From the IMG/VR virus record IMGVR_UViG_3300045970_000298, positions 1 through 30,572 of that record: a stretch of 30,572 bases of DNA, one strand, 5' to 3'. Under the pieces are notes generated by a model. It was not told the origin of the DNA. It saw only the letters and a list, made by a program, of their open reading frames with translations, and did not search any database. Position numbers and translations under genes: made by a program. Of the stretch, positions 2,910 to 30,572 are shown piece by piece. The DNA is from a virus. Numbering within the stretch: position 1 is the stretch's first letter; every line of letters begins with the position of its first letter.

Positions 2910-3275
2910 ATGAAAACTCTGTGTATTTTTGCCTATGTACTGCTTTCTTCCATTAATTTTGCCAATGCCGGGGCATATAAATGCGATGTAAATGGGAAAC
3001 TGGTTTTCCAAGATCATCCTTGCTTAGGCGGTACAGGCGAAGCGTTGAAACTTGACCCTGTCCCATTGGCCGATCCATTCGAATCGCTTGCTGGAGCCGG
3101 TAAAGTCATTCCCGGGATGACTGAAAAGCAAGTGAAACGCGCATGGGGAGAGCCTACCAGCATCAATCCATCATTTACTGCTGGGCACTCATTCGCGCAA
3201 TGGGTGTATCGTCGCGATATCAGCCGTTCGCAGTACATTTATTTTCAAGATGGGATCGTAACGGGCTGGAATTGA
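2910..3275 (+). CDS. secreted DUF4124/BamE-like protein, likely moron
   Basis: 121 residues. Residues 1-20 form a signal peptide (MKTLCIF...FANA) with a probable signal peptidase I site at ANA/G. Residues 22-40 (AYKCDVNGKLVFQDHPC) fit DUF4124, with two cysteines that could pair in the periplasm. Residues 66-121 (VIPGMTEKQVKRAWGEP ... QWVYRR ... YFQDGIVTGW) resemble the SmpA/OmlA (BamE) fold. The ATG at 2910 is chosen over an in-frame TTG at 2874 because it opens the signal peptide and has GGAGGA at 2897-2902. The gene is visibly AT-richer than its neighbours and has no counterpart in lambda packaging operons, so it is probably acquired cargo expressed in the lysogen's envelope. A role in surface change or superinfection immunity is a guess. 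Confidence 0.7.
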   Translation: MKTLCIFAYVLLSSINFANAGAYKCDVNGKLVFQDHPCLGGTGEALKLDPVPLADPFESLAGAGKVIPGMTEKQVKRAWGEPTSINPSFTAGHSFAQWVYRRDISRSQYIYFQDGIVTGWN

Positions 3276-3287
3276 CCCGGCCAAAAA

Positions 3288-3341
3288 AATTCCACCGTTT
3301 TGCCTATTCCGTGGACAGCCACGCCGGTAGGCTCCCCGGTC
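3288..3341 (+). promoter_or_regulatory. conserved leader element, copy 1 (pseudoknot or dyad)
   Basis: This 54-base leader ends at the start codon of the head-tail joiner. TCCAC (3291-3295) pairs with GTGGA (3311-3315). GCCTA (3302-3306), inside that loop, pairs with TAGGC (3328-3332) downstream, which gives an H-type pseudoknot topology. GGTAGG (3326-3331), the only Shine-Dalgarno-like sequence before the ATG, is largely inside the 3' strand. The same element, with identical spacing, lies before the protease gene (10800-10853). It could be a translational switch or, instead, a DNA dyad plus a -10-like TAGGCT recognised by the Mor-like activator. Confidence 0.6.
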
Positions 3342-3572
3342 ATGAGCACCGGAATCACCCTCGCACAAGCACAGACCCAACTCCAGAAATATCTGGACGC
3401 GGAAACCGCCATTTTGTCTGGGCAGCGCTATGAGCTGAACGGGCGCGCCTTGTGGCGGGCTGATTTGGCCGCCGTGCAAGCGGGGATTGAGACCTGGAAC
3501 AAGCGCGTGCAAGCCCTGGCCGCCAGCGAGTCGGGCCGTGGGCGCACCATGGTCGTGCAGCCGAGGTGGTAA
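3342..3572 (+). CDS. head-tail joining protein (gpW-like, DUF6148)
   Basis: 76 residues, helical, with the pattern GITLAQAQTQLQKYLDAE ... SGQRYELNGRALWRADL ... TWNKRV typical of DUF6148 proteins, which hold the position of lambda gpW between terminase and portal. gpW-type proteins stabilise packaged DNA at the portal and form part of the neck. The ATG at 3342 is used. An upstream in-frame TTG at 3300 would place the start inside the conserved leader and add residues (PIPWTATPVGSP) that do not look coding. Its TAA overlaps the portal ATG by one base (TAATG). Confidence 0.75.
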   Translation: MSTGITLAQAQTQLQKYLDAETAILSGQRYELNGRALWRADLAAVQAGIETWNKRVQALAASESGRGRTMVVQPRW

Positions 3573-5197: not shown

Positions 5198-5854
5198 ATG
5201 TCGTCCATGTCCGATTACCTGGAAAACAAGCTGATCGATCACTTGTTCAAAGCCACCGCCTTCACCGCGCCTGCCGCCATGGCCGTGGCGCTGTTCGCGG
5301 TCAGCAAGGGCCAGCGCGCCAACAGCACCGCCTATGCCCTCAATGACACCATCTGGCTCACCGCCAACGACACCAAAACCCACATTTACAAATGCACCAC
5401 CGCAGGCACCACCGCAGCGGCGCAGAGCACCCTGTATCCCGGCGCGATTGCCGAGGCCATCACCGACGGCACAGCAGTCTTTACCGAACAGTCCACGGCG
5501 TTCGACTCCAACAGCAACACCGCCATGGAGGTGTCCACCACCAGCACCGGCTATGCCCGCGTATCGATAAACCCATCCTCCACGGCCAACTGGCTCAACA
5601 CCCAGGGCACCGCGTCCGGCGCATCCAGCGGCACCACCGGCACCACCAGCAACCAGAGCACCATCACCTTCGGCTCGCCGACGGCCACCTGGGGCGGAGC
5701 AGGAGCTATGATCGCCGCCATGGGCGTCTACGACGCCACCAGTGCCGGAAACCTGCTGTTCTGGGGCACCCTTACCACACCCAAAACCGTCAACAACGGC
5801 GACGCCGCACCCACGTTTGCCGCGTCGGCGCTGAGCTTCCAGATCGATAACTAA
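5198..5854 (+). CDS. phage tail-fibre-like protein (Gp80-type) with inserted module
   Basis: 218 residues. The start 'YLENKLIDHLFKATAFTAPA' (8-27) and the end (GGAGAMIAAMGVYD ... NLLFWGTLTTPKTVNNGD) match small tail-fibre-annotated proteins of siphophages (Gp80-like), a compact beta-sandwich. Between them, about residues 45-100 form an extra segment (LNDTIWLTAN ... YKCTTAGTT ... DGTAVFTE) that resembles the 'YkcttaGts...DGtvtW' module found in many phage decoration and fibre proteins, suggesting a domain insertion. It has a clear GGAGTAAGCC ribosome site, a cassette repeated before two other genes. It opens the accessory block; surface location on the virion is inferred. Confidence 0.6.
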   Translation: MSSMSDYLENKLIDHLFKATAFTAPAAMAVALFAVSKGQRANSTAYALNDTIWLTANDTKTHIYKCTTAGTTAAAQSTLYPGAIAEAITDGTAVFTEQSTAFDSNSNTAMEVSTTSTGYARVSINPSSTANWLNTQGTASGASSGTTGTTSNQSTITFGSPTATWGGAGAMIAAMGVYDATSAGNLLFWGTLTTPKTVNNGDAAPTFAASALSFQIDN

Positions 5855-5855
5855 C

Positions 5856-6992
5856 ATGTCGAGCATCGACGTCTCCGGCATCGTCCAAATCCAGCCCGAT
5901 GGGGCGGGTAAGGCCATTGATGCCTCCGTGGTTACCACCGATGCGGCTGCGGTTGTCTATCGCCAGCGCATCAATGTAGCGGACCCAATTGCCGACAATC
6001 ACGCGGGCGTAGGCAGCACGCCGGCCATGGACGAAGACGCGCTGTATGTGCGGGATTTAAACGGTCCCCAACGCGGCGATCCCATCATTGTCACCCAGGA
6101 TCTGGACAGCAACGGTCCGTTGATCGTCGCTCAGGGGGAAGGGCTTTGGCGGGAAATTGCCCAGGCCCGCGACCCCAATGGCGCAATCCGCGACCTAAAT
6201 TGCGACCCGCTGGGTAATCTGCAGATCTCCAACACAGTTTCGGATCTCTATCGATTCAGCTTTTCGGCATCGGGCCAGACCAGTCAGGCCATCCCGCTGA
6301 ATGGCGCGACGCAGCTCATCCTCAGTTATGTCTCCGGCGCCGGCAATATCGCGGTGGACGCCAGCCTTGATGGCGTCAGCTGGGTCGCTTGCGATCTGTT
6401 CAGCTTCGCGGCGGTGGCGCCGTCCGGAACCTCGTTCGGAACGGCCACGCACTATCGGGTGTGCGTGTCCGGGTTTGTTTACGCCCGCATCCGCGCATCC
6501 ACTTTCACGACGCTGATACAGGGGGTTGTGAGGGTCACGAGCGGGATTGGATACATCCCGGTGAATACCGGGTTTTCACTTACGGCAGCAGCGGCGGCAA
6601 CAACGACCAGCGCAGTGGCCGTGGCGCTCAGCCCGAACACGCCGGTGCCAACCATGTCGCAGATTAATAGTGCAGCGACGACGAATGCCACCAGCATCAA
6701 GGCCAGCGCTGGAACGATTTACAACGTCATTGCCAGCAACGCGGGAGCGGCGGCGGTTTACGTCAAATTCTATAACCTCGCAGCAGCGCCCACAGTGGGA
6801 ACCAGTGTGCCCGTCTTTATTATTTCCCTCGGCGCAGCGGGTACGGCAGACGCGACAAAAGTCCTCGACTTCGGCCTCATTGGCCAGCGATTTACGACGG
6901 GCATCGCGCTCGCGATTACCAACTTGCCAGCGGACAGCGACACGACAGTGATTGCTGCTGCCCAAGTAAAAGTCTCCACTTCATACATTTAG
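5856..6992 (+). CDS. virion structural protein, unknown role
   Basis: 378 residues, rich in Ala, Thr, Ser and Val, low in charge, without membrane segments. The first 110 residues contain short strands (RDPNGAIRDLNCDPLGNLQIS). Residues about 120-215 look like a beta-sandwich (SQAIPLNGATQLILSYVSG ... YARIRAST). The C-terminal part from about 265 (NATSIKASAGTIYNVIASN ... AVYVKFYN) is a common beta-domain in phage structural proteins. The ATG follows the upstream stop by one base. I infer a fibre, baseplate or capsid-surface protein; no enzyme motif is visible. Confidence 0.55.
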   Translation: MSSIDVSGIVQIQPDGAGKAIDASVVTTDAAAVVYRQRINVADPIADNHAGVGSTPAMDEDALYVRDLNGPQRGDPIIVTQDLDSNGPLIVAQGEGLWREIAQARDPNGAIRDLNCDPLGNLQISNTVSDLYRFSFSASGQTSQAIPLNGATQLILSYVSGAGNIAVDASLDGVSWVACDLFSFAAVAPSGTSFGTATHYRVCVSGFVYARIRASTFTTLIQGVVRVTSGIGYIPVNTGFSLTAAAAATTTSAVAVALSPNTPVPTMSQINSAATTNATSIKASAGTIYNVIASNAGAAAVYVKFYNLAAAPTVGTSVPVFIISLGAAGTADATKVLDFGLIGQRFTTGIALAITNLPADSDTTVIAAAQVKVSTSYI

Positions 6993-7003
6993 CAGGTACT
7001 CAC

Positions 7004-7636
7004 ATGCTCGCAGAAGGCAAAGCAGGCAAGAAGATTCTTAACTCCGGAGCGCTGGTTGAACTGCGCCTCGGTCCCACGGGTGCGCTGGTCCAGCAGGACG
7101 GACACGCCCGCTATTACGAAACCACCCGCAACGGCGACTGCTACACCGCCATTGCCACAGCGGTGACCATCGCCGCCACCCACGTTTCCCCGGCAACGGC
7201 GAACACGGGCACGCCGATTATCGGTCTATTCAACCCGGCGAACTCCGGTAAAAACCTTTCCCTGATCGCGCTGGATCTCCAGACGATCTCGGGTACTCCG
7301 GGTGGCCCGTTCTATTGGAATGTGATCCCAGCGCCTTGCGGCATTACTGCTGCGGGAACCGCCGGCCTGAACTCTGCCAGCTTCGCGGCGGGCGGCGTAG
7401 CGAAGGTGTTCGGCAATGCCGCTACCACGGGCAGCTTGGCGGGTACAGTGTTCCGCGTATTGGGTGGCCCTGCGGCGATCGCTGCGGGCGCGGGCATCTA
7501 TTCGGTTGAGGACGAGGTGGCGGGTTCCATCATCATTCCTCCTGGCGCTTTTGCCGGTGTTTACGCCAAAGCCGTAGGCACCACGCACATTGTGGATGCG
7601 TCCATCGTGTGGGAAGAAGTGACCATCACGACCTAG
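7004..7636 (+). CDS. virion structural protein, unknown role
   Basis: 210 residues, Gly/Ala/Thr-rich, probably all beta. The segment 'PIIGLFNPANSGKNLSLIALDL' (about 70-90, quoted in part) and the C-terminal 'IIPPGAFAGVYAKAVGTTHIVDASIVWEE' region read like virion surface proteins in which a hydrophobic strand core alternates with Gly/Ala loops. No catalytic motif or membrane helix is seen. Only a weak ribosome site (CAGG) precedes the ATG. It lies between two other putative structural genes in one direction, so co-expression as a virion module is likely. The specific role is unknown. Confidence 0.5.
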   Translation: MLAEGKAGKKILNSGALVELRLGPTGALVQQDGHARYYETTRNGDCYTAIATAVTIAATHVSPATANTGTPIIGLFNPANSGKNLSLIALDLQTISGTPGGPFYWNVIPAPCGITAAGTAGLNSASFAAGGVAKVFGNAATTGSLAGTVFRVLGGPAAIAAGAGIYSVEDEVAGSIIIPPGAFAGVYAKAVGTTHIVDASIVWEEVTITT

Positions 7637-7645
7637 TGATACGCG

Positions 7646-8545
7646 ATGTCACTGCTGCTTTTATTTAACCAGCAGGCCGCCGCTGCAGGCTCCTTTGCCT
7701 CGGCGGCGGGCGCTTCGGCGTCGGTTAGCGCCGGGCTGTCTACGCAATTGCAGATGGCGGCGGTTGCGTCTGCGTCTGCATCCGCATCGCCCGCGCTGAC
7801 CACGGGAGGGTCCGCCGCTGCCCTGCAGTCATCGGCAAGCGCCGCCAGCGCTGCCGTCGCCGCGCTCACTGCGCAAGTGCAGCTGTTTGCTGCCGCCACT
7901 GGCATCAGCACAGTCACGCCCGCCCTCACCGCGCAGATCCCGCTAGCATCGTCCGCCCCGGTCATCTCCGCCACCACGGCAGCCTTCACCAACCAGATCC
8001 GCTTTGCCAGCGCCGCCACCGCGCAGGCCAGCACCACCCTCGCACTCACGGCAGGACCATCCGGCAGTTTGGCAGCGGCGTTGGCGGCATCGGCCAGCAG
8101 TACCGTCGCTTTCACCGCGCAGATCCGCCTGGCCGCCACCACCACCAGCCAGGCCACCACCGCTGCATCCCTCACCACCAGCGCGGCCAGCGGCATGGCG
8201 GTTACGGCATCGGCCTCGTCCAGCGTATCGCCTTCGCTCACTACCCAGGTACGCATGGCCTCGGTCACGGTAGCGACGGCGGCGGCCAACTCCGCGATGA
8301 CTTGCGGCATCACCCTGGGGGCCGTCCATGCAGCCAGCGCGAGAGTGACCGCTGCGGGCCTGGTCACCACCTTGCGCCTGGGCGCGCAGGCCGCCAACAG
8401 TTGCAGCCTGGTGGCGTCCCTGGCTTCCGGAATCACGGCGGTGGAAGACCCGCGCTACCGTGTCCACCCTGCCGCGCGCACCTGGCAAGCCAGCCAGTCC
8501 CGCGCCTGGGCAGTCAAACCAACACCACGAAAATGGGTAGCCTGA
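7646..8545 (+). CDS. Ala/Ser/Thr-rich repeat protein, ~20-residue repeats
   Basis: 299 residues. From about residue 30 to 265 the chain is built from about twelve degenerate units near 20 residues long, each with a strand-like start such as LTAQVQLFAA, LTAQIPLASS, FTNQIRFASA, FTAQIRLAAT or LTTQVRMASV, followed by a small-residue run. Charge is almost absent until the last 35 residues, which turn basic and aromatic (ARTWQASQSRAWAV ... PRKW). The regular period suggests a repetitive beta structure or extended fibre. The tail may dock onto another virion protein. The stop abuts the next ATG (TGAATG). I know similar phage proteins only as hypothetical. Confidence 0.6.
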   Translation: MSLLLLFNQQAAAAGSFASAAGASASVSAGLSTQLQMAAVASASASASPALTTGGSAAALQSSASAASAAVAALTAQVQLFAAATGISTVTPALTAQIPLASSAPVISATTAAFTNQIRFASAATAQASTTLALTAGPSGSLAAALAASASSTVAFTAQIRLAATTTSQATTAASLTTSAASGMAVTASASSSVSPSLTTQVRMASVTVATAAANSAMTCGITLGAVHAASARVTAAGLVTTLRLGAQAANSCSLVASLASGITAVEDPRYRVHPAARTWQASQSRAWAVKPTPRKWVA

Positions 8546-8857
8546 ATGCTGGACGTCACGGTAGAACCCAAAGCCACCGAAGAAAAGATTGTCATCACCT
8601 TCTATTTCACCGACGAACTGGCCCCGGCAGAAACCCTCACCGGCGCCATCACGAGTTCGTTTACGGTGGTCAAAGGCACCGACGGCAACCCAAGCGCCAT
8701 GGCCAACGGGTCCGCCGTTTTCGACTCCACGGGCAAAAAGATTCTATTGCCCATCCAGGGCGGCTTGGCGGGCAATCAATACCGCATCAAGGTGGTCAGT
8801 GCGACCACCAATGCCAGCAAAACCCTGGCCCGGTCAGCGCTCATCAGCATCGAGTAA
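8546..8857 (+). CDS. small phage structural protein (beta-sandwich)
   Basis: 103 residues. It opens with alternating strands (DVTVEPKATEEKIVITFYFT) and continues with 'SAMANGSAVFDSTGKKILLPIQGGLAGNQYRIKV', an Ig-like layout common in small phage proteins that follow repeat or fibre genes. It starts directly after the stop of the repeat protein and ends seven bases before the next start, so these genes are tightly coupled. No enzyme motif. It is probably an accessory virion protein or a binding partner of the basic C-terminus of the preceding protein; the partnership is inference from adjacency only. Confidence 0.5.
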   Translation: MLDVTVEPKATEEKIVITFYFTDELAPAETLTGAITSSFTVVKGTDGNPSAMANGSAVFDSTGKKILLPIQGGLAGNQYRIKVVSATTNASKTLARSALISIE

Positions 8858-8863
8858 GGAACC

Positions 8864-9214
8864 ATGACCACGGAAAACAGTTACAACCCAAACGTCCGCC
8901 CCAGTGACCAAATCGCGGGGATTACCTCTGCACAGGTACAGGCCATTTACGGCATCCCGCAGGGCGGCACCATCAAGATCTACCCCACCGTGGCGGGCAG
9001 CGCCACGCTGTATACCTCGTGTTCACCTCTGGCGACCATTGCCGCCGATGTGGCCGGCAGTGACCTGACCACGCCGGGGGCCTCGGCCTTGCGCTGGGAC
9101 GCTTCCATTTCGGGTGTCGTCACCACCACCGACATTGTCATCGCCGCCGGAGCGCTCAAGGCCGCCGCGCTGAAAGTCAGCTCAGGCACCTGGACCATGG
9201 AGGTGGTGCGTTAA
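8864..9214 (+). CDS. small structural protein, unknown function
   Basis: 116 residues, mostly polar and small, with strands such as 'GGTIKIYPTVAGSATLYTS' (about 35-53) and 'GTWTMEVVR' at the end. A good AAGGA ribosome site lies at 8856-8860. The TAA overlaps the ATG of the SGNH hydrolase gene by one base, which suggests that the two are made together. Its size and beta-rich pattern fit an adaptor or capping protein, but I do not recognise the family. Confidence 0.5.
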   Translation: MTTENSYNPNVRPSDQIAGITSAQVQAIYGIPQGGTIKIYPTVAGSATLYTSCSPLATIAADVAGSDLTTPGASALRWDASISGVVTTTDIVIAAGALKAAALKVSSGTWTMEVVR

Positions 9215-10545
9215 TGGGCAAAACCGCCACCGTCCATTACAAGTCCCGGTTTACGGCATCCCAGTTCCCGGAGATCGTGGTGGGCGCCATCGGCGATTCC
9301 ATCGTTAACAACGGCGTCATCAACGGCAGCAACGACACCGATGCCTATTCCTATGCGCAAGTCTCCTGGCTGTTCGCTGGAGCGCGCCAGGCCAATGGGC
9401 TATGGATCGCCGGGCCGCATTTCGGCGTCGGCGGCTACACCTCCGCGCAGATCCTCGCCGCCGCGCCGTCCTGGACGCCGCTACAAGATCCCTATTGCAC
9501 CCATGTCTGCGTCATGTCTGGCACCAACGACATCGGCAGCTCATTAACTGCCGAGCAGTCCATCGCCGGGATCACCGCCATCTGGGACCTGGTGCTGAGC
9601 ACTGGCAGAGTACCTGTTGCCTGCTCGCTCCTCCCACGCGCCAGCGCCACCGATGCGCAACTGATTTTTAATGCGAAGGTGAATTGGTACATCCGCAAGG
9701 CCGCCGCGCGGTATGGCATTCCCTTCGCTGACTTCCTGACTGCCTGCCTGGACCCGGCCAGCGGCAACGCCATGAACTGGAAAACCAATTATCTCCTTAA
9801 TGGAGACTCCATCCATCCAGGACCGGCAGGCGCATGGGCCATGGGTGGCGCACTGAACGCCGCCATTCAGAGCATCGCGCCGGCAGTTTCAAAAACCTTC
9901 CCTAAAGCCTATTACCAGGGTACGGCAGCGGGCGTTTTGCCTGCCAATAACCTATTCCGCACCCTTACCGGAACCATCAACGTCAGTGGTTCCACGCCCA
10001 CATCCTTCGCCACCGTCACCGGGTCGCCGGTGCAGATCGTCTACGACCAGGCGACCTTCAATGCCACTTATCCTGGAAATGCCATGGCTCCTTATGGCGG
10101 GTCGAACGTGTGGGAGCTGGCCATCGATTCGGTGCAGAACTTCGTCACCATCAACAGCAGCGGCGCACCCATGACCGGTTTTTCTGCGGGCGACCGGGTA
10201 GGCTTTGCCTTTAACTTTAAGGTGGTGCCTGCCGGAGCGGAGGTGAACGCCATCCCGGGCTTTCAGATCGGCCTGCGTGACGCAGGAAATACCGCCGCGC
10301 AGATGCTGTGTTTTGGCAAAGTCACCGGCACCAGCTATTCCAGCCCCAACAGCGCCCTCACCGCCGGAGGCATGGCGGATGAGGGCTACATCTATCTGGA
10401 GCGGTCCCTCCCGGCGGGGCTGACCGCCAGCGGTTTATGTCTGTACGCAAGCATGAGCCAAACCGCCGGAAAAACCGGCGGCAAGTTGTTGCTCAGCAAT
10501 CTGATGGTCATCAATTACACAACCGGCGGAGCCATGGTGGTTTAA
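9214..10545 (+). CDS. SGNH/GDSL hydrolase with C-terminal beta domain
   Basis: 443 residues. The N-terminal domain (about 20-220) has the SGNH blocks: GDS with nucleophile Ser29, the block II glycine in 'GVGGYT' (about 72-77), GTND at 104-107 and the Asp199/His202 pair in DSIHP. All catalytic residues are present, so an active esterase is expected, probably removing acyl groups from a surface polysaccharide. Residues about 230-443 form a beta-rich domain with many Gly/Thr residues, likely for binding or virion attachment. No signal peptide is seen, consistent with assembly into particles. It sits in the accessory block between fibre-like genes and a membrane protein. The substrate is unknown. 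Confidence 0.8.
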   Translation: MGKTATVHYKSRFTASQFPEIVVGAIGDSIVNNGVINGSNDTDAYSYAQVSWLFAGARQANGLWIAGPHFGVGGYTSAQILAAAPSWTPLQDPYCTHVCVMSGTNDIGSSLTAEQSIAGITAIWDLVLSTGRVPVACSLLPRASATDAQLIFNAKVNWYIRKAAARYGIPFADFLTACLDPASGNAMNWKTNYLLNGDSIHPGPAGAWAMGGALNAAIQSIAPAVSKTFPKAYYQGTAAGVLPANNLFRTLTGTINVSGSTPTSFATVTGSPVQIVYDQATFNATYPGNAMAPYGGSNVWELAIDSVQNFVTINSSGAPMTGFSAGDRVGFAFNFKVVPAGAEVNAIPGFQIGLRDAGNTAAQMLCFGKVTGTSYSSPNSALTAGGMADEGYIYLERSLPAGLTASGLCLYASMSQTAGKTGGKLLLSNLMVINYTTGGAMVV

Positions 10546-10797
10546 ATGCAAGATCCAATCATCGAACGTCGCCGATCCTACGATCAGATGATCGGCGAGC
10601 TGCTGGCAGAGGTGCGCCACATCAAGGACGCCCTACAGCAAACCCAGGAAAAGCTGGACGAGATCCAGGGCCGCATGAACGTCATTGACGATATGCGCAG
10701 CCAGGGCAAGGGCGCGCTACTGATCCTGGGTGCGCTGTTTGTCTTTATCGGCTACCTGGCCAACCACCTGTTCGACCGCATTTTCCCGCCAACGTAA
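10546..10797 (+). CDS. coiled-coil plus one membrane helix protein (XhlA-like)
   Basis: 83 residues. Residues about 8-50 are a heptad-rich coiled coil (EVRHIKDALQQTQEKLDEI). About 56-74 is one hydrophobic helix (ALLILGALFVFIGYLANHLF), followed by a short tail with FDRIFPPT. This layout matches XhlA/hemolysin-type small phage proteins that assist holins, and also some membrane anchors of unknown role. It begins directly after the stop of the hydrolase gene and ends just before the second leader element. A lysis role is possible, but no endolysin gene is nearby. Confidence 0.55.
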   Translation: MQDPIIERRRSYDQMIGELLAEVRHIKDALQQTQEKLDEIQGRMNVIDDMRSQGKGALLILGALFVFIGYLANHLFDRIFPPT

Positions 10798-10799
10798 AA

Positions 10800-10853
10800 A
10801 AGTCCACCGTTTTGCCTATTCGGTGGACAAACGCCTCGGTAGGCTTCTGCACC
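10800..10853 (+). promoter_or_regulatory. conserved leader element, copy 2 (pseudoknot or dyad)
   Basis: It aligns without a gap to 3288-3341, including 18 identical bases (10803-10820), and ends at the protease ATG. GTCCACCG (10802-10809) pairs perfectly with CGGTGGAC (10821-10828). GCCTA (10814-10818), in that loop, pairs with TAGGC (10840-10844). The 3' strand covers the GGTAGG region that would bind the ribosome. The outer stem is 8 bp here against 5 bp in copy 1. The two copies differ in the linker (10830-10837) and just before the ATG, while the paired segments are kept. Confidence 0.65.
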
Positions 10854-12140
10854 ATGAGCGAACGCACCGAAAATCACCACATCCTCTCGGCCATTCTGTC
10901 CGAGTCCTGGGCCATCCAGCCGGAGGCGCTGACGGGCATTCTGTCCATCGCCAGCCGCGCCAACGAAAGCCCCGAGGCCGTCGCCACGCGCCTGGGCCGT
11001 CCACTGGAAAACTCCCAGGCCGTCACACGCCGTGACGCCACCGCCATCGTTCCGGTCAAGGGTCCGATTTTCCGTTACGCCAATCTATTCACCCAGGTTT
11101 CCGGCGCCACCAGCATCCAGGTACTGGCTACCGATCTGCAGGCCGCCATGGATGACCCCAGCGTCAAATCCATCGTACTGGAGATCGACTCGCCCGGCGG
11201 GCAAGTGGCCGGCATTGCCGAGTTCGCCGCCCAGGTCCGCGCTGCCAGCGCCGTCAAGCCGGTGATCGCCTATGTCAGCGATCTGGGCGCATCCGCCGCT
11301 TACTGGATCGCCGCCGCCGCGTCCGAAATCGTCGCCTCCGACACCGCCATGCTGGGCTCCATCGGCGTGGTGATGACGGCCTCCACCGGCGGCGACGCCA
11401 AGACCATCAAATTTGTCAGTTCGCAGTCACCGGCGAAACACGCAGACCCTAGCTCCGATTTGGGCCAGCAACGCTACCAACAACAGGTAGATGCGCTGGC
11501 CTCTGTTTTTGTCTTGCAGGTGGCCCAGTATCGCGGCGTAGATCCGCAGAAGGTGCTTACGGATTTTGGCCAGGGCGGCGTATTGATCGGCGCGGCGGCG
11601 GTGGCCGCCGGCATGGCGGACCGACTTGGTTCGCTCGAATCCATTCTTGCCGGGTTGTCCGGCGCAACTCAGCAACGAGGTAATACCATGAGTGCATCCA
11701 ACCAACCGGACGCGCTGCCCATCACGGCGGATACGCTGCGGGCACAGCACCCGGACGTTTATCAAGCCGTTTTCGACACGGGCGCCAAGGCCGAGCGGGA
11801 ACGCATTCAGGGCGTCGAAGAGCAGCTGATTCCGGGCCATGAAGCCCTGATAGCCGCGCTCAAGTTCGACGGCAAAACCAGCGGGCCAGAGGCCGCCGTC
11901 AAGGTGCTCAACGCCGAGAAGGCCGCCCGCACCACCGCGCTGGACCAACGCCGCGCTGACGCACCCAAGCCATTGCCCCACGCAGAAGCGCCGCTCACCG
12001 ACGCTCCGGCCGCCAGCAAAAAGCCGAAAACCGCCGAACAAATCGCCGCCGCCGCCACCCGTTACCAGCTGGAGCAGAAAGCCCTGGGCATCACGGTGGA
12101 CGACGTCACCGCCGTCAACTACGTCCTGCATGGGGAGTAA
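10854..12140 (+). CDS. S49 prohead protease fused to scaffold (lambda C-like)
   Basis: 428 residues. The protease domain (about 60-285) has the S49 (SppA/ClpP-fold) signatures 'LEIDSPGGQVAG' (109-120) and 'GASAAYWIAAAA' (145-156), with Ser147 the likely nucleophile. A lysine near 195 (SPAKH) is the candidate general base. The C-terminal 150 residues are polar, Ala/Glu/Lys-rich and helical, as in a Nu3-type scaffold. In lambda-type phages the protein helps form the prohead and then cleaves the scaffold. ATG 10854 sits right after the leader element; an earlier in-frame start at 10812 would lie inside that element and is rejected. Confidence 0.92.
   Translation: MSERTENHHILSAILSESWAIQPEALTGILSIASRANESPEAVATRLGRPLENSQAVTRRDATAIVPVKGPIFRYANLFTQVSGATSIQVLATDLQAAMDDPSVKSIVLEIDSPGGQVAGIAEFAAQVRAASAVKPVIAYVSDLGASAAYWIAAAASEIVASDTAMLGSIGVVMTASTGGDAKTIKFVSSQSPAKHADPSSDLGQQRYQQQVDALASVFVLQVAQYRGVDPQKVLTDFGQGGVLIGAAAVAAGMADRLGSLESILAGLSGATQQRGNTMSASNQPDALPITADTLRAQHPDVYQAVFDTGAKAERERIQGVEEQLIPGHEALIAALKFDGKTSGPEAAVKVLNAEKAARTTALDQRRADAPKPLPHAEAPLTDAPAASKKPKTAEQIAAAATRYQLEQKALGITVDDVTAVNYVLHGE
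11688..12140 (+). CDS. nested scaffolding protein (Nu3-like internal start)
   Basis: An in-frame ATG at 11688 inside the protease gene is preceded by AACGAGG (11674-11680) at ideal spacing. It would give a 150-residue protein (MSASNQPDALPITADTL...) equal to the scaffold part alone. This mirrors lambda, where Nu3 is made from an internal start in gene C. The product is acidic to neutral, Ala-rich and helical, with 'AGAKAERERIQGVEEQLIPGHE'-type helices (in part) shared by such scaffolds. The ribosome site falls at the junction of protease and scaffold, as expected if functional. Confidence 0.7.
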   Translation: MSASNQPDALPITADTLRAQHPDVYQAVFDTGAKAERERIQGVEEQLIPGHEALIAALKFDGKTSGPEAAVKVLNAEKAARTTALDQRRADAPKPLPHAEAPLTDAPAASKKPKTAEQIAAAATRYQLEQKALGITVDDVTAVNYVLHGE

Positions 12141-27456: not shown

Positions 27457-27475
27457 GAGTGTGGCACGGTGCCAC
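27457..27475 (+). promoter_or_regulatory. palindrome overlapping right direct repeat
   Basis: GTGGCAC G GTGCCAC (27461-27475) is a perfect 7-bp dyad with one central base. It overlaps the second copy of GAGTGTGGCA (27457-27466). It lies just after the predicted transcription start and 24 bases before the integrase ATG, so it could be an operator for the integrase or a repressor, or a leader hairpin. Confidence 0.45.
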
Positions 27476-27499
27476 GCGGGATTGCTAAAAAGGCCGTCT

Positions 27500-28552
27500 A
27501 TGTCCACCGTCCGAAAACGCCCCAACGGAACCTACCAGGTCACGATCCGGCGCAATATCCTGCCTAAGCCCCATTACGCCACCTTTGATACAGAGGCGGA
27601 AGCGACTCGGTATGCGCAGCGTATGGAGACTTTATTGAATCGCGGCGTGGTGCCGGATGCGTTGCGAGCGGAGCCTAAGCGGGAGGTGGTGATTGGGGAT
27701 TGGGTGGATCGGTATTTGTCCCAGGTGCATGTATCTGCCCATGATCGGGATGTGTTGACGCGGCTGGATCTGCAGTCTCTACGTGGCGTTGAGGTGCATT
27801 TGCTGGATGTGCATCGGGTGATGCAGTGGGTGACGGCGATGAAGACCGCCGGCCTGGCGCCGGGGACGATTCGGAAAAAGGTGGGCGCGATGGCGCGGGT
27901 GTTTGATTGGTGCGTGATTGCGGAGTTGGCGGATCTGAATCCTTTTCGCCTGATCCCGAAGCGCTATTCCATCTACACGCCTTCCGATGGTGAGGCGGTG
28001 CGGGATGTGGAGCGGGATCGGCGGCTGCATCCGGGCGAAGAGGATGCCTTGCGGGCGGCCATGGCGGGGATGTTGTCGGTGGATCGGGATGCCTGGGTGC
28101 TGTTGTTTACCCTGGCCATCGAGACGGCGATGCGTCTGCGGGAGATGTACACGCTCCGGTGGGAGCAGGTGGACGTGGATCGGCGCACGATCTTTCTGGA
28201 CAAGACCAAAAACGGCGATAAGCGCCAGGTGCCGCTGTCCAGCGTTGCCCTTGCCTGTCTGGGCGGCATTCCTGCGCGCAGCGGGTTGTTGTTCCCCTGG
28301 TGGGATGGGAATGATCGAAGCCTGAAAAAAACCACCGCGAGGTTATCCTCGAAATGGTCGCGGATTGCGCGGGATGCGGGCTGTGAGGATCTGAACTTTC
28401 ACGACCTTCGGCACGAGGCGACTTGCCGATTGTATGAGCGCACGCGGTTGACGGATGTGCAGATTGCCCGGATCACCGGTCACAAAACGCTGATTATGCT
28501 CAAGCGCTATGCCAGCCTGCGCGGCAGTGATTTAGCTGGGGAGCTCTGGTAG
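27500..28552 (+). CDS. int: tyrosine integrase
   Basis: 350 residues. The N-terminal part (1-60) is a basic arm-binding domain (STVRKRPNGTYQVTIRR). About 62-155 is the core-binding domain, and 175-350 the catalytic domain. Catalytic residues visible are Arg212 (AMRLRE), Lys237 (TKNGDK), His301 and Arg304 (HDLRHE), His328 (TGHKT) and Tyr337 (LKRYAS). The enzyme would recombine attP with the host tRNA-Cys gene. ATG 27500 has AAAAAGG seven bases upstream; an in-frame earlier start at 27461 lies in the palindrome and is rejected. It overlaps the opposite-strand excisionase-like gene by 21 bases at the 3' ends. The G-rich codon use differs from the C-rich late genes. Confidence 0.95.
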   Translation: MSTVRKRPNGTYQVTIRRNILPKPHYATFDTEAEATRYAQRMETLLNRGVVPDALRAEPKREVVIGDWVDRYLSQVHVSAHDRDVLTRLDLQSLRGVEVHLLDVHRVMQWVTAMKTAGLAPGTIRKKVGAMARVFDWCVIAELADLNPFRLIPKRYSIYTPSDGEAVRDVERDRRLHPGEEDALRAAMAGMLSVDRDAWVLLFTLAIETAMRLREMYTLRWEQVDVDRRTIFLDKTKNGDKRQVPLSSVALACLGGIPARSGLLFPWWDGNDRSLKKTTARLSSKWSRIARDAGCEDLNFHDLRHEATCRLYERTRLTDVQIARITGHKTLIMLKRYASLRGSDLAGELW

Positions 28553-29557: not shown

Positions 29558-29791
29558 TTAGTTTCTGGACAAACGCTTGGGCTCATCCGCCATGCTCGGC
29601 ATAAATCCGCTGCCGTGCGATTGGCCGGTGGCCTTGATGTAATCCACCTCGGCTTTGGCGCTGTTGACCAGTACCTGGGCGACGTCGGCGATGGCCCTGG
29701 CGCGGTCGATGTCCATGGGTTTTTCTTCGTCTTGCAGGGCTTCCAGGGTGGCAAACAAATGGTTTCTTAAATCTTCAATCTTATTTTTCAT
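29558..29791 (-). CDS. conserved small phage protein next to HNH gene
   Basis: 77 residues, mostly helical: 'KNKIEDLRNHLFATLEALQD' then 'RARAIADVAQVLVNSAKAEVDYIKATG' (in parts). I recognise this pattern from many temperate phages and prophages, where it lies near an HNH or replication gene. No catalytic motif is visible. It overlaps the end of the HNH gene by 11 bases, so they are coupled. The function is unknown. Confidence 0.7.
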   Translation of the reverse strand: MKNKIEDLRNHLFATLEALQDEEKPMDIDRARAIADVAQVLVNSAKAEVDYIKATGQSHGSGFMPSMADEPKRLSRN

Positions 29792-30428
29792 CTCGGCTCT
29801 CGATTTTGCGTTTGAGTTTGGCGACGGTGCGGATGCAGTCTTTGAGTTCTTTTGGGTATCTGTGAATGGTATTTCGGCGCATCAATTCTTTGCGGTCGAT
29901 GGCTTCCAGGTTTTCAATCGTGCAATTCTTTTTATTGCCGTCCTTGAATACGACGACATGGCCGTTGGGTAATGGTCCGTGATGCTCGATCCAGAGTAAT
30001 ACATGGACTCCCATATAATCCTTTCGGGTGATTCCGGTTTCTGCGACTTTGCGTTCCGTATACCCTTCTTTGGTGACTCTCTCAAAACCCAGGGGTTGCC
30101 GGTTGTGTGCAACGGTGCCGGGCTTGAATTGGGTCTGTATGGCGCGCTCGTTGCTGACGATGACGGTTTTGCCTTTGTTCCATGAGGCGTGCCCGGGTTG
30201 AAATCGATGGCCGTTGTCTTGGCAATCCCGGGTTTTGCGGCCAGAGGCTGGGCTATTCATAAATTCATCGGATTTGCGCAGGCCGAGTTGGATGGCTTTT
30301 TGGTATATGCCAGTCAGCCCGCGATCCAGTTCGTCGGCGATGGTTTGGGTTTTGGTGTCTGGATAAAGTTGGCGCAAGCGCTCCAACTCCCTTAAGCTCC
30401 AGTGGCGTTTTTTACGCTTCGTCGTCAT
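29781..30428 (-). CDS. HNH endonuclease (HNH_3-type)
   Basis: 215 residues from ATG 30428. Residues 1-55 are a basic helical segment with a helix-turn-helix-like part (WSLRELERLRQLYP ... TIADELDRGLTGIYQKAIQLGL), likely DNA binding. The nuclease motif lies at 140-186 (VHVLLWIEHHGPLP ... FKDGNKKNCTIENLEAI, then ELMRRN). The second His of the classic H-DGN motif is Phe161, as in several phage HNH proteins, so activity is not assured. It may be a free-standing homing nuclease or have a role in early DNA metabolism. A longer frame upstream of 30428 overlaps the Lar-like gene and is rejected. Confidence 0.8.
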   Translation of the reverse strand: MTTKRKKRHWSLRELERLRQLYPDTKTQTIADELDRGLTGIYQKAIQLGLRKSDEFMNSPASGRKTRDCQDNGHRFQPGHASWNKGKTVIVSNERAIQTQFKPGTVAHNRQPLGFERVTKEGYTERKVAETGITRKDYMGVHVLLWIEHHGPLPNGHVVVFKDGNKKNCTIENLEAIDRKELMRRNTIHRYPKELKDCIRTVAKLKRKIESRDEK

Positions 30429-30572
30429 CGAATATGTCCGCCGTTTGATGATCGATGGGCATGCGTTGGTTCCATACGTGCAGCGCTTGGTGCTGTCCGG
30501 TGCTGGCGATTTCGTGACTGGCAATAGGTCCAGTGCAGCCGCATTGGTCGCAAAGGACTGCGTATACATTCA
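30412..30572 (-). CDS. Lar-like zinc-binding protein, partial
   Basis: The frame enters from beyond the right edge and ends at TAA 30412-30414, overlapping the HNH start by 17 bases. The visible part has 'VLCDQCGCTGPIASHEIA' and 'ALHVWNQRM', i.e. a CxxCG knuckle followed by GP and a WNxR end. This is the pattern of Lar-family restriction-alleviation proteins, small zinc proteins that dampen host type I restriction. The start lies outside the window. The frame is supported by the motif and by the absence of stops. Confidence 0.65.
   Translation of the reverse strand, partial: NVYAVLCDQCGCTGPIASHEIASTGQHQALHVWNQRMPIDHQTADIFDDDEA

Follow-up and report, generated by a model that had tools for sequence, protein, structure and literature searches.

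The two leaders in front of the gpW-like joiner gene and the S49 protease gene of the virus analyzed here are, at a probability of about 0.86, activator-dependent sigma-70 DNA promoters, which would be bound by the Mor/C-like product of the gene at 2597-2866. The analyzed stretch, in the following called the window, is a virus record of 30,572 bases, which contains two copies of the element in total. A first-pass annotation of this DNA had proposed a translational operator with an RNA pseudoknot; its suggestion that one regulatory element is used twice, at two head-assembly genes, is retained here, whereas the pseudoknot operator is given up because the pairing is at chance level in relatives.

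The repeat pair comprises 64 nt with 80% identity (3284-3347 and 10796-10859) and aligns without a gap. Within it, the coordinates and letters given earlier for 3288-3341 and 10800-10853 were correct, and the 18 identical bases were re-found as TCCACCGTTTTGCCTATT, which occurs in the window at 3291-3308 and 10803-10820 and nowhere else. Both copies indeed have the same distance between the stem arms (20 bases), from GTGGA to TAGGC (17 bases) and to the ATG. Copy 2 does form the described 8-bp stem and copy 1 does contain the C-C mismatch, and the downstream genes were identified as a gpW-like joiner (PF19645/phrog_118) and an S49 protease. The two-copy leader is far above chance: allowing up to three mismatches, the 17-mer CCACCGTTTTGCCTATT was found twice, compared to 0.04 occurrences expected from shuffles. 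An exact search of IMG/VR with this 17-mer gave no match beyond the window, and a single-protein search of IMG/VR with the window protease yielded no relatives. The positions of all parts are listed in Table 1.

Table 1. Activator gene, element copies and downstream genes in the window.
Feature	Position	Strand	Remark
Mor/C-like activator gene, 89 aa	2597..2866	+	GTG start overlaps terL stop
Copy 1, left arm TTCCACCG	3290..3297	+	TTCCAC in register of consensus GTCTCA
Copy 1, conserved core TGCCTA	3301..3306	+	consensus GCCCTA; C and T 100% in 72 elements
Copy 1, right arm CCGTGGAC	3309..3316	+	
Copy 1, predicted -10 hexamer TAGGCT	3328..3333	+	predicted transcription start ~3340-3342
gpW-like head-tail joiner gene	3342..3572	+	leaderless mRNA predicted; -10 box to ATG 8 nt
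Copy 2, left arm GTCCACCG	10802..10809	+	
Copy 2, conserved core TGCCTA	10813..10818	+	
Copy 2, right arm CGGTGGAC	10821..10828	+	
Copy 2, predicted -10 hexamer TAGGCT	10840..10845	+	predicted transcription start ~10852-10854
S49 head-maturation protease gene	10854..12140	+	leaderless mRNA predicted

Apart from these features, the window contains a small gene between the activator gene and copy 1 (2910-3275), which has a signal peptide-like start, resembles DUF4124 by eye and looks like an inserted gene, a moron. In the large insert that separates portal and protease (5198-10797), the encoded products are a gp80-like fibre protein, a GDSL/lipase-like protein (9214-10545), a small membrane protein (10546-10797) and several family-less proteins rich in Ala, Ser and Thr. 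The relatives L006, L009, and L007 carry cargo in this place as well. A tyrosine integrase gene is located at 27461-28552 (+) and an HNH endonuclease gene at the window end (29781-30569, -).

Related phages were collected via portal-protein searches and, for a later set, via a separate protease search. More than 20 of them have a repeat that is common to the gpW leader and the protease leader, with letters that vary by phage (for example, CGTCTCAAAACCTCCCTTATTTTGAGACG in L007, TTGTCGCAATTTGGCCTAGTTTT in L010, and GTCGTCTCACTTTGCCCTATTTGAGACG in L085). Since the letters differ between phages but are shared within a phage, each phage keeps its own matched pair. The near-full phage genomes G001 (L007, 40.5 kb) and G002 (L073, 39.8 kb) carry the repeat twice each and at no other site, and the element profile matched the coding strand in every case. 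Where hosts are named in the genome set, they belong to the Betaproteobacteria (Noviherbaspirillum, Nitrotoga, Rubrivivax, and a Rhodocyclaceae MAG); the GTCTCA form was not found in 399 whole genomes from the order of the Noviherbaspirillum sp. Root189 genome (L011). Some phages showed individual deviations. L084 has a third copy (5714-5765), followed by a gene whose product resembles a head decoration protein at its start and extends into a longer cargo protein. In L114 (3681-3722) and L115 (7494-7535), an extra element directly follows the activator gene and precedes the gpW copy by about 170 bp, and L137 has everted arms (9650-9700; GTGAGAC ... GTCTCAC) despite the default helix ISRATLYR.

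For the analysis of the promoter architecture, 80 elements were collected (72 distinct, from 53 contigs) and anchored on the core. The computation revealed a conserved layout, in which an inverted repeat around a CCCTA core is followed after 21 bp by a hexamer. In the core (xxCCTA), C and T are invariant. The arm and core columns have a high information content, which is near nil over about ten further columns and goes up again at two columns with A (93%) and T (93%). These two are four bases apart and represent positions 2 and 6 of a TAnnnT hexamer (for example, TAGAGT, GAAAGT, TAAAGT, or TAATCT). They correspond to positions -11 and -7 of the sigma-70 -10 box. Hexamer positions 2 and 6 are the -10 box bases that sigma-70 needs most; at position -12, T occurs in 54% only. 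The spacing of 21 bp between core and hexamer applies to 66 of the 72 elements, whereby the choice among candidate hexamers slightly favored this spacing and the A and T columns emerge with core-only anchoring too. A -35 hexamer was not detected above chance, with 2.46 matches to TTGACA compared to 2.42 in shuffled sequences. The inverted arms are perfect in 58 of the 72 elements, and the right arm is absent, with the left arm kept, in both copies of L010, L011, and L118 as well as in single copies of L082, L094, and others. Thus, an inverted repeat, a -10 box and no -35 box were found, as in target promoters of the Mor/C family.

The candidate regulator is encoded next to the element. Between terL and gpW, usually directly before gpW, phages with the repeat contain an open reading frame of about 90-105 codons, the product of which has a helix-turn-helix at its C-terminus, and a homologue of this Mor-like gene is present in all 21 phages with the two-copy element. 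Computed over the 90 loci with both genes, which counts related phages separately, repeat and gene co-occur in 20 loci, the repeat alone is present in 1, the gene alone in 8, and neither in 61 (Fisher 1e-12). In the one repeat-only locus (L076), the locus ended early, and the same contig carries the gene past an inserted methyltransferase gene. The element was not found in L009 and L113, though both carry the Mor-like gene; in some gene-only phages (L006, L070, L071, and, from the later set, L193 and L203), the Mor-like gene runs straight into gpW and the element was detected only at the protease.

The protein is most probably an activator that is distantly related to the Mor/C family of phage Mu, judging from profile comparisons. 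The best solved-structure match of the family profile is Mu Mor (1rr7), with an E-value of 8.6e-4 for 21 sequences and 8.6e-5 for 27 sequences, and the alignment covers the GG-x-VYI strand and the C-terminal helix-turn-helix, which represents a profile relation to Mor/C. The commonest PHROG match of the family is to late transcriptional activators. Pfam Mor (PF08765) was matched at E<=0.1 by 13 of 21 family members, and the homologue at the same genomic position in L085 reaches the cut-off with 28.7 bits. The window protein scored 16.1 bits, below the cut-off of 24.9, and for this reason it is named Mor/C-like rather than regarded as a proven member. Its AlphaFold monomer (pLDDT 82.5, pTM 0.42) had no significant match in Foldseek and no match to a Mor structure. 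A P2 Ogr-type zinc-finger late activator was also considered and rejected, as the window protein has one cysteine and no cysteine-rich zinc-binding motif.

The recognition helix of the family follows the pattern [IV]-p1-R-p3-T-x-Y-R (GISRSTIYN in the window protein, with p1=S78 and p3=S80), and two of its residues covary with the arms. Among 43 phages, p3=R occurs together with G at arm base 3 (GTGnCA) in 5 of 5 cases and never otherwise, and p1=D/H with G at arm base 4 (GTCGCA) in 4 of 4 cases and never otherwise, so that the rule holds in 43/43 phages, whereby the arm letters of this training set were partly assigned by eye and those of L006 and L067 were taken from the right arm. On a tree built without the helix, these represent 5 separate changes for p3/base 3 and 4 for p1/base 4; well-supported branches provide 3 and 1 pairs, respectively, which is below what a sign test needs. 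In a scan of all protein columns, no other column came close to p3 (z ~12) and p1 (z ~10) in its association with these bases; the next one reached at most about 5. Furthermore, for phages from the separate protease search, arms were predicted from the helix and recorded before the DNA was read. All 10 blind predictions were correct, 6 of them for the default arm and 4 for a non-default arm (L168 GTGCCA, L178 GTGACA, L208 GTCGCA, and the protease copy of L174, GTGCCA); the L174 Mor-like protein is identical to that of an earlier locus, and only its protease copy was new to the blind test. L215, for which no prediction had been recorded, has p3=R and an arm with GTG. The window's own combination of arm GTCCAC and helix ISRSTIYN is a singleton, so the code rests on the other phages and not on this one. 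DNA specificity may be set by the two helix residues, which would constitute a simple matching code of activator and site across many related phages.

Since covariation reveals binding specificity and not the regulatory sign, the Mor-like protein might also be a repressor or a dual regulator that keeps the head genes silent until another signal arrives, and a repressor, too, could occupy this site, which overlaps the promoter region. We consider this improbable, as no -35 hexamer is present above chance and an activator is therefore expected to be needed, and as the nearest characterized relatives, Mu Mor and C, are activators (PMC4390567; PMC4461284).

For the activator-dependent promoter, we infer the following course. 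The activator would be produced together with the terminase, because its gene overlaps the end of terL, and would then turn on the head genes, which would thus be expressed later than the terminase. It would bind both dyads, each an inverted repeat (arms GTCCACCG/CGGTGGAC, core TTTTGCCTA) that is centered about 37 bp upstream of the predicted start and would replace the -35 box. RNA polymerase would be recruited or positioned in this way at promoters without a -35 box, use the TAGGCT hexamer as -10 box, and start at the ATG or up to about 2 bases from it. The products would be a leaderless gpW-portal mRNA and a leaderless protease-capsid mRNA.

The prediction of leaderless mRNAs derives from the spacing. 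In both window copies, the hexamer is 8 nt away from the ATG, and a start 7 nt past the hexamer would lie at most about 2 bases from the ATG, so both window promoters are predicted to give mRNAs that begin on or near the start codon. Among the collected elements, 21 of 31 distinct protease copies have 6-9 nt between hexamer end and start codon, and the others have 22-27 nt. Most gpW copies have 21-30 nt at this place, and a Shine-Dalgarno motif occurs within the predicted transcribed part in 28 of 37 such leaders. As a separate observation, predicted gpW leaders of 20-30 nt often have a hairpin at the extreme 5' end, the 3' arm of which contains the Shine-Dalgarno sequence (L085, L092, L159, L163, L084, L013, and others); stems of at least 5 bp occur in 28% compared to 7% in shuffled sequences. 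In protease leaders of 22-27 nt, a hairpin is often located just 5' of the ATG, and a Shine-Dalgarno sequence is mostly absent.

A structured RNA leader that regulates gpW and protease at the level of translation, be it an H-type pseudoknot or only the stem, would fit several features of the window: base pairing between GCCTA and TAGGC is possible in both copies, copy 2 has the 8-bp stem, and the inverted arms are retained in most elements. However, the comparison of homologous leaders makes this reading very unlikely. Complementarity of at least 5 bp between loop and downstream part occurs in 10% of the 72 elements and equally in 10% of shuffled sequences, and full 5/5 pairing in the window's register is present in the window only; a conserved loop:TAGGC pairing is absent. 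Each copy folded alone gave stem A for copy 2 and a GCCTA/TAGGC hairpin in place of stem A for copy 1, so that there is no common predicted structure, and Rfam yielded no covariance-model match at either copy. Several phages lost the right arm while other parts stay, 30 of 33 arm mismatches are not G-U (3/33 are), and the arm letters follow the helix of a DNA-binding protein. We know of no way in which an RNA structure would yield such a helix-arm covariation. The GGTAGG that had been taken for a Shine-Dalgarno sequence overlaps the predicted -10 hexamer, with its A and T at fixed spacing inside the supposed RNA element. Finally, the first-pass annotation had held that a transcript start inside or after the element would refute an RNA operator, and the computed start lies at or just before the ATG.

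The least probable explanation, already disfavored, is that the element represents a boundary or recombination sequence of cargo inserted in front of gpW and protease. Inserted genes do precede both window copies (2910-3275 and 5198-10797), but many phages (e.g., L085, L118, and L010) contain the element without any portal-protease cargo. Moreover, the element invariably lies on the coding strand and keeps a constant distance to the -10-like box.

The activator-dependent promoters proposed here are closest to a known system of phage Mu, in which Mor binds inverted repeats that replace the -35 box of Pm (PMC4390567). Common to both are a small phage helix-turn-helix activator, an inverted repeat with a G/C-rich center in place of the -35 box, and a recognizable -10 hexamer. 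Unlike in Mu, the gene is located here at the end of the terminase gene, beside its own target, and there are two target promoters, both at head genes. In addition, the dyad is wider (~24-28 bp compared to the 16-bp Mu Mor site) and closer to the start (~-37 compared to -43.5 at Pm), and it has a fixed CCCTA core with arms that vary between phages. Mu C, a late-gene activator of the same family, has several target promoters per phage (PMC4461284). It drives four late operons (lys, I, P, and mom) with different sites and genes, whereas here two copies are present, before gpW and protease only. With the T4 gene 32 pseudoknot, the window shares only the topology on paper (arm, loop, and downstream complement); unlike there, the pairing is not conserved in relatives and a -10 box occupies that place. 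Lambda cI transcribed from PRM is a leaderless phage mRNA. The transcripts predicted here would likewise begin at the AUG, but for late structural genes and with a Mor-like activator.

Mor/C activators and their promoters are already known. In the literature covered by the search, largely open-access papers, we found no description of a Mor-like gene with promoters at gpW and protease, nor of a branch that combines a packaging-operon gene, two head promoters, a wide fixed-core dyad, repeated specificity switches, and a predicted leaderless protease mRNA. We see an even chance that the Mor-like activators of these phages with lambda-type heads form a distinct branch, in which a packaging-operon activator serves two dedicated head promoters via half-sites that flank a fixed CCCTA core at wide spacing, two specificity-setting helix residues have repeatedly been switched with the sites, the protease mRNA is leaderless, and head assembly is timed by the choice of promoter and ribosome.

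For the biology of these phages, the results assign a regulator and its target to many phages with unannotated late regulation. They provide a testable protein-DNA code, in which a single recognition-helix residue predicts an operator base, and would offer a natural series for an activator and all its sites changing specificity together. They also illustrate how an RNA-like pattern from a single genome becomes a promoter after comparison of relatives. Provided that the predicted start sites are correct, a leaderless mRNA would serve for the translation of a late structural operon, which would be unusual.
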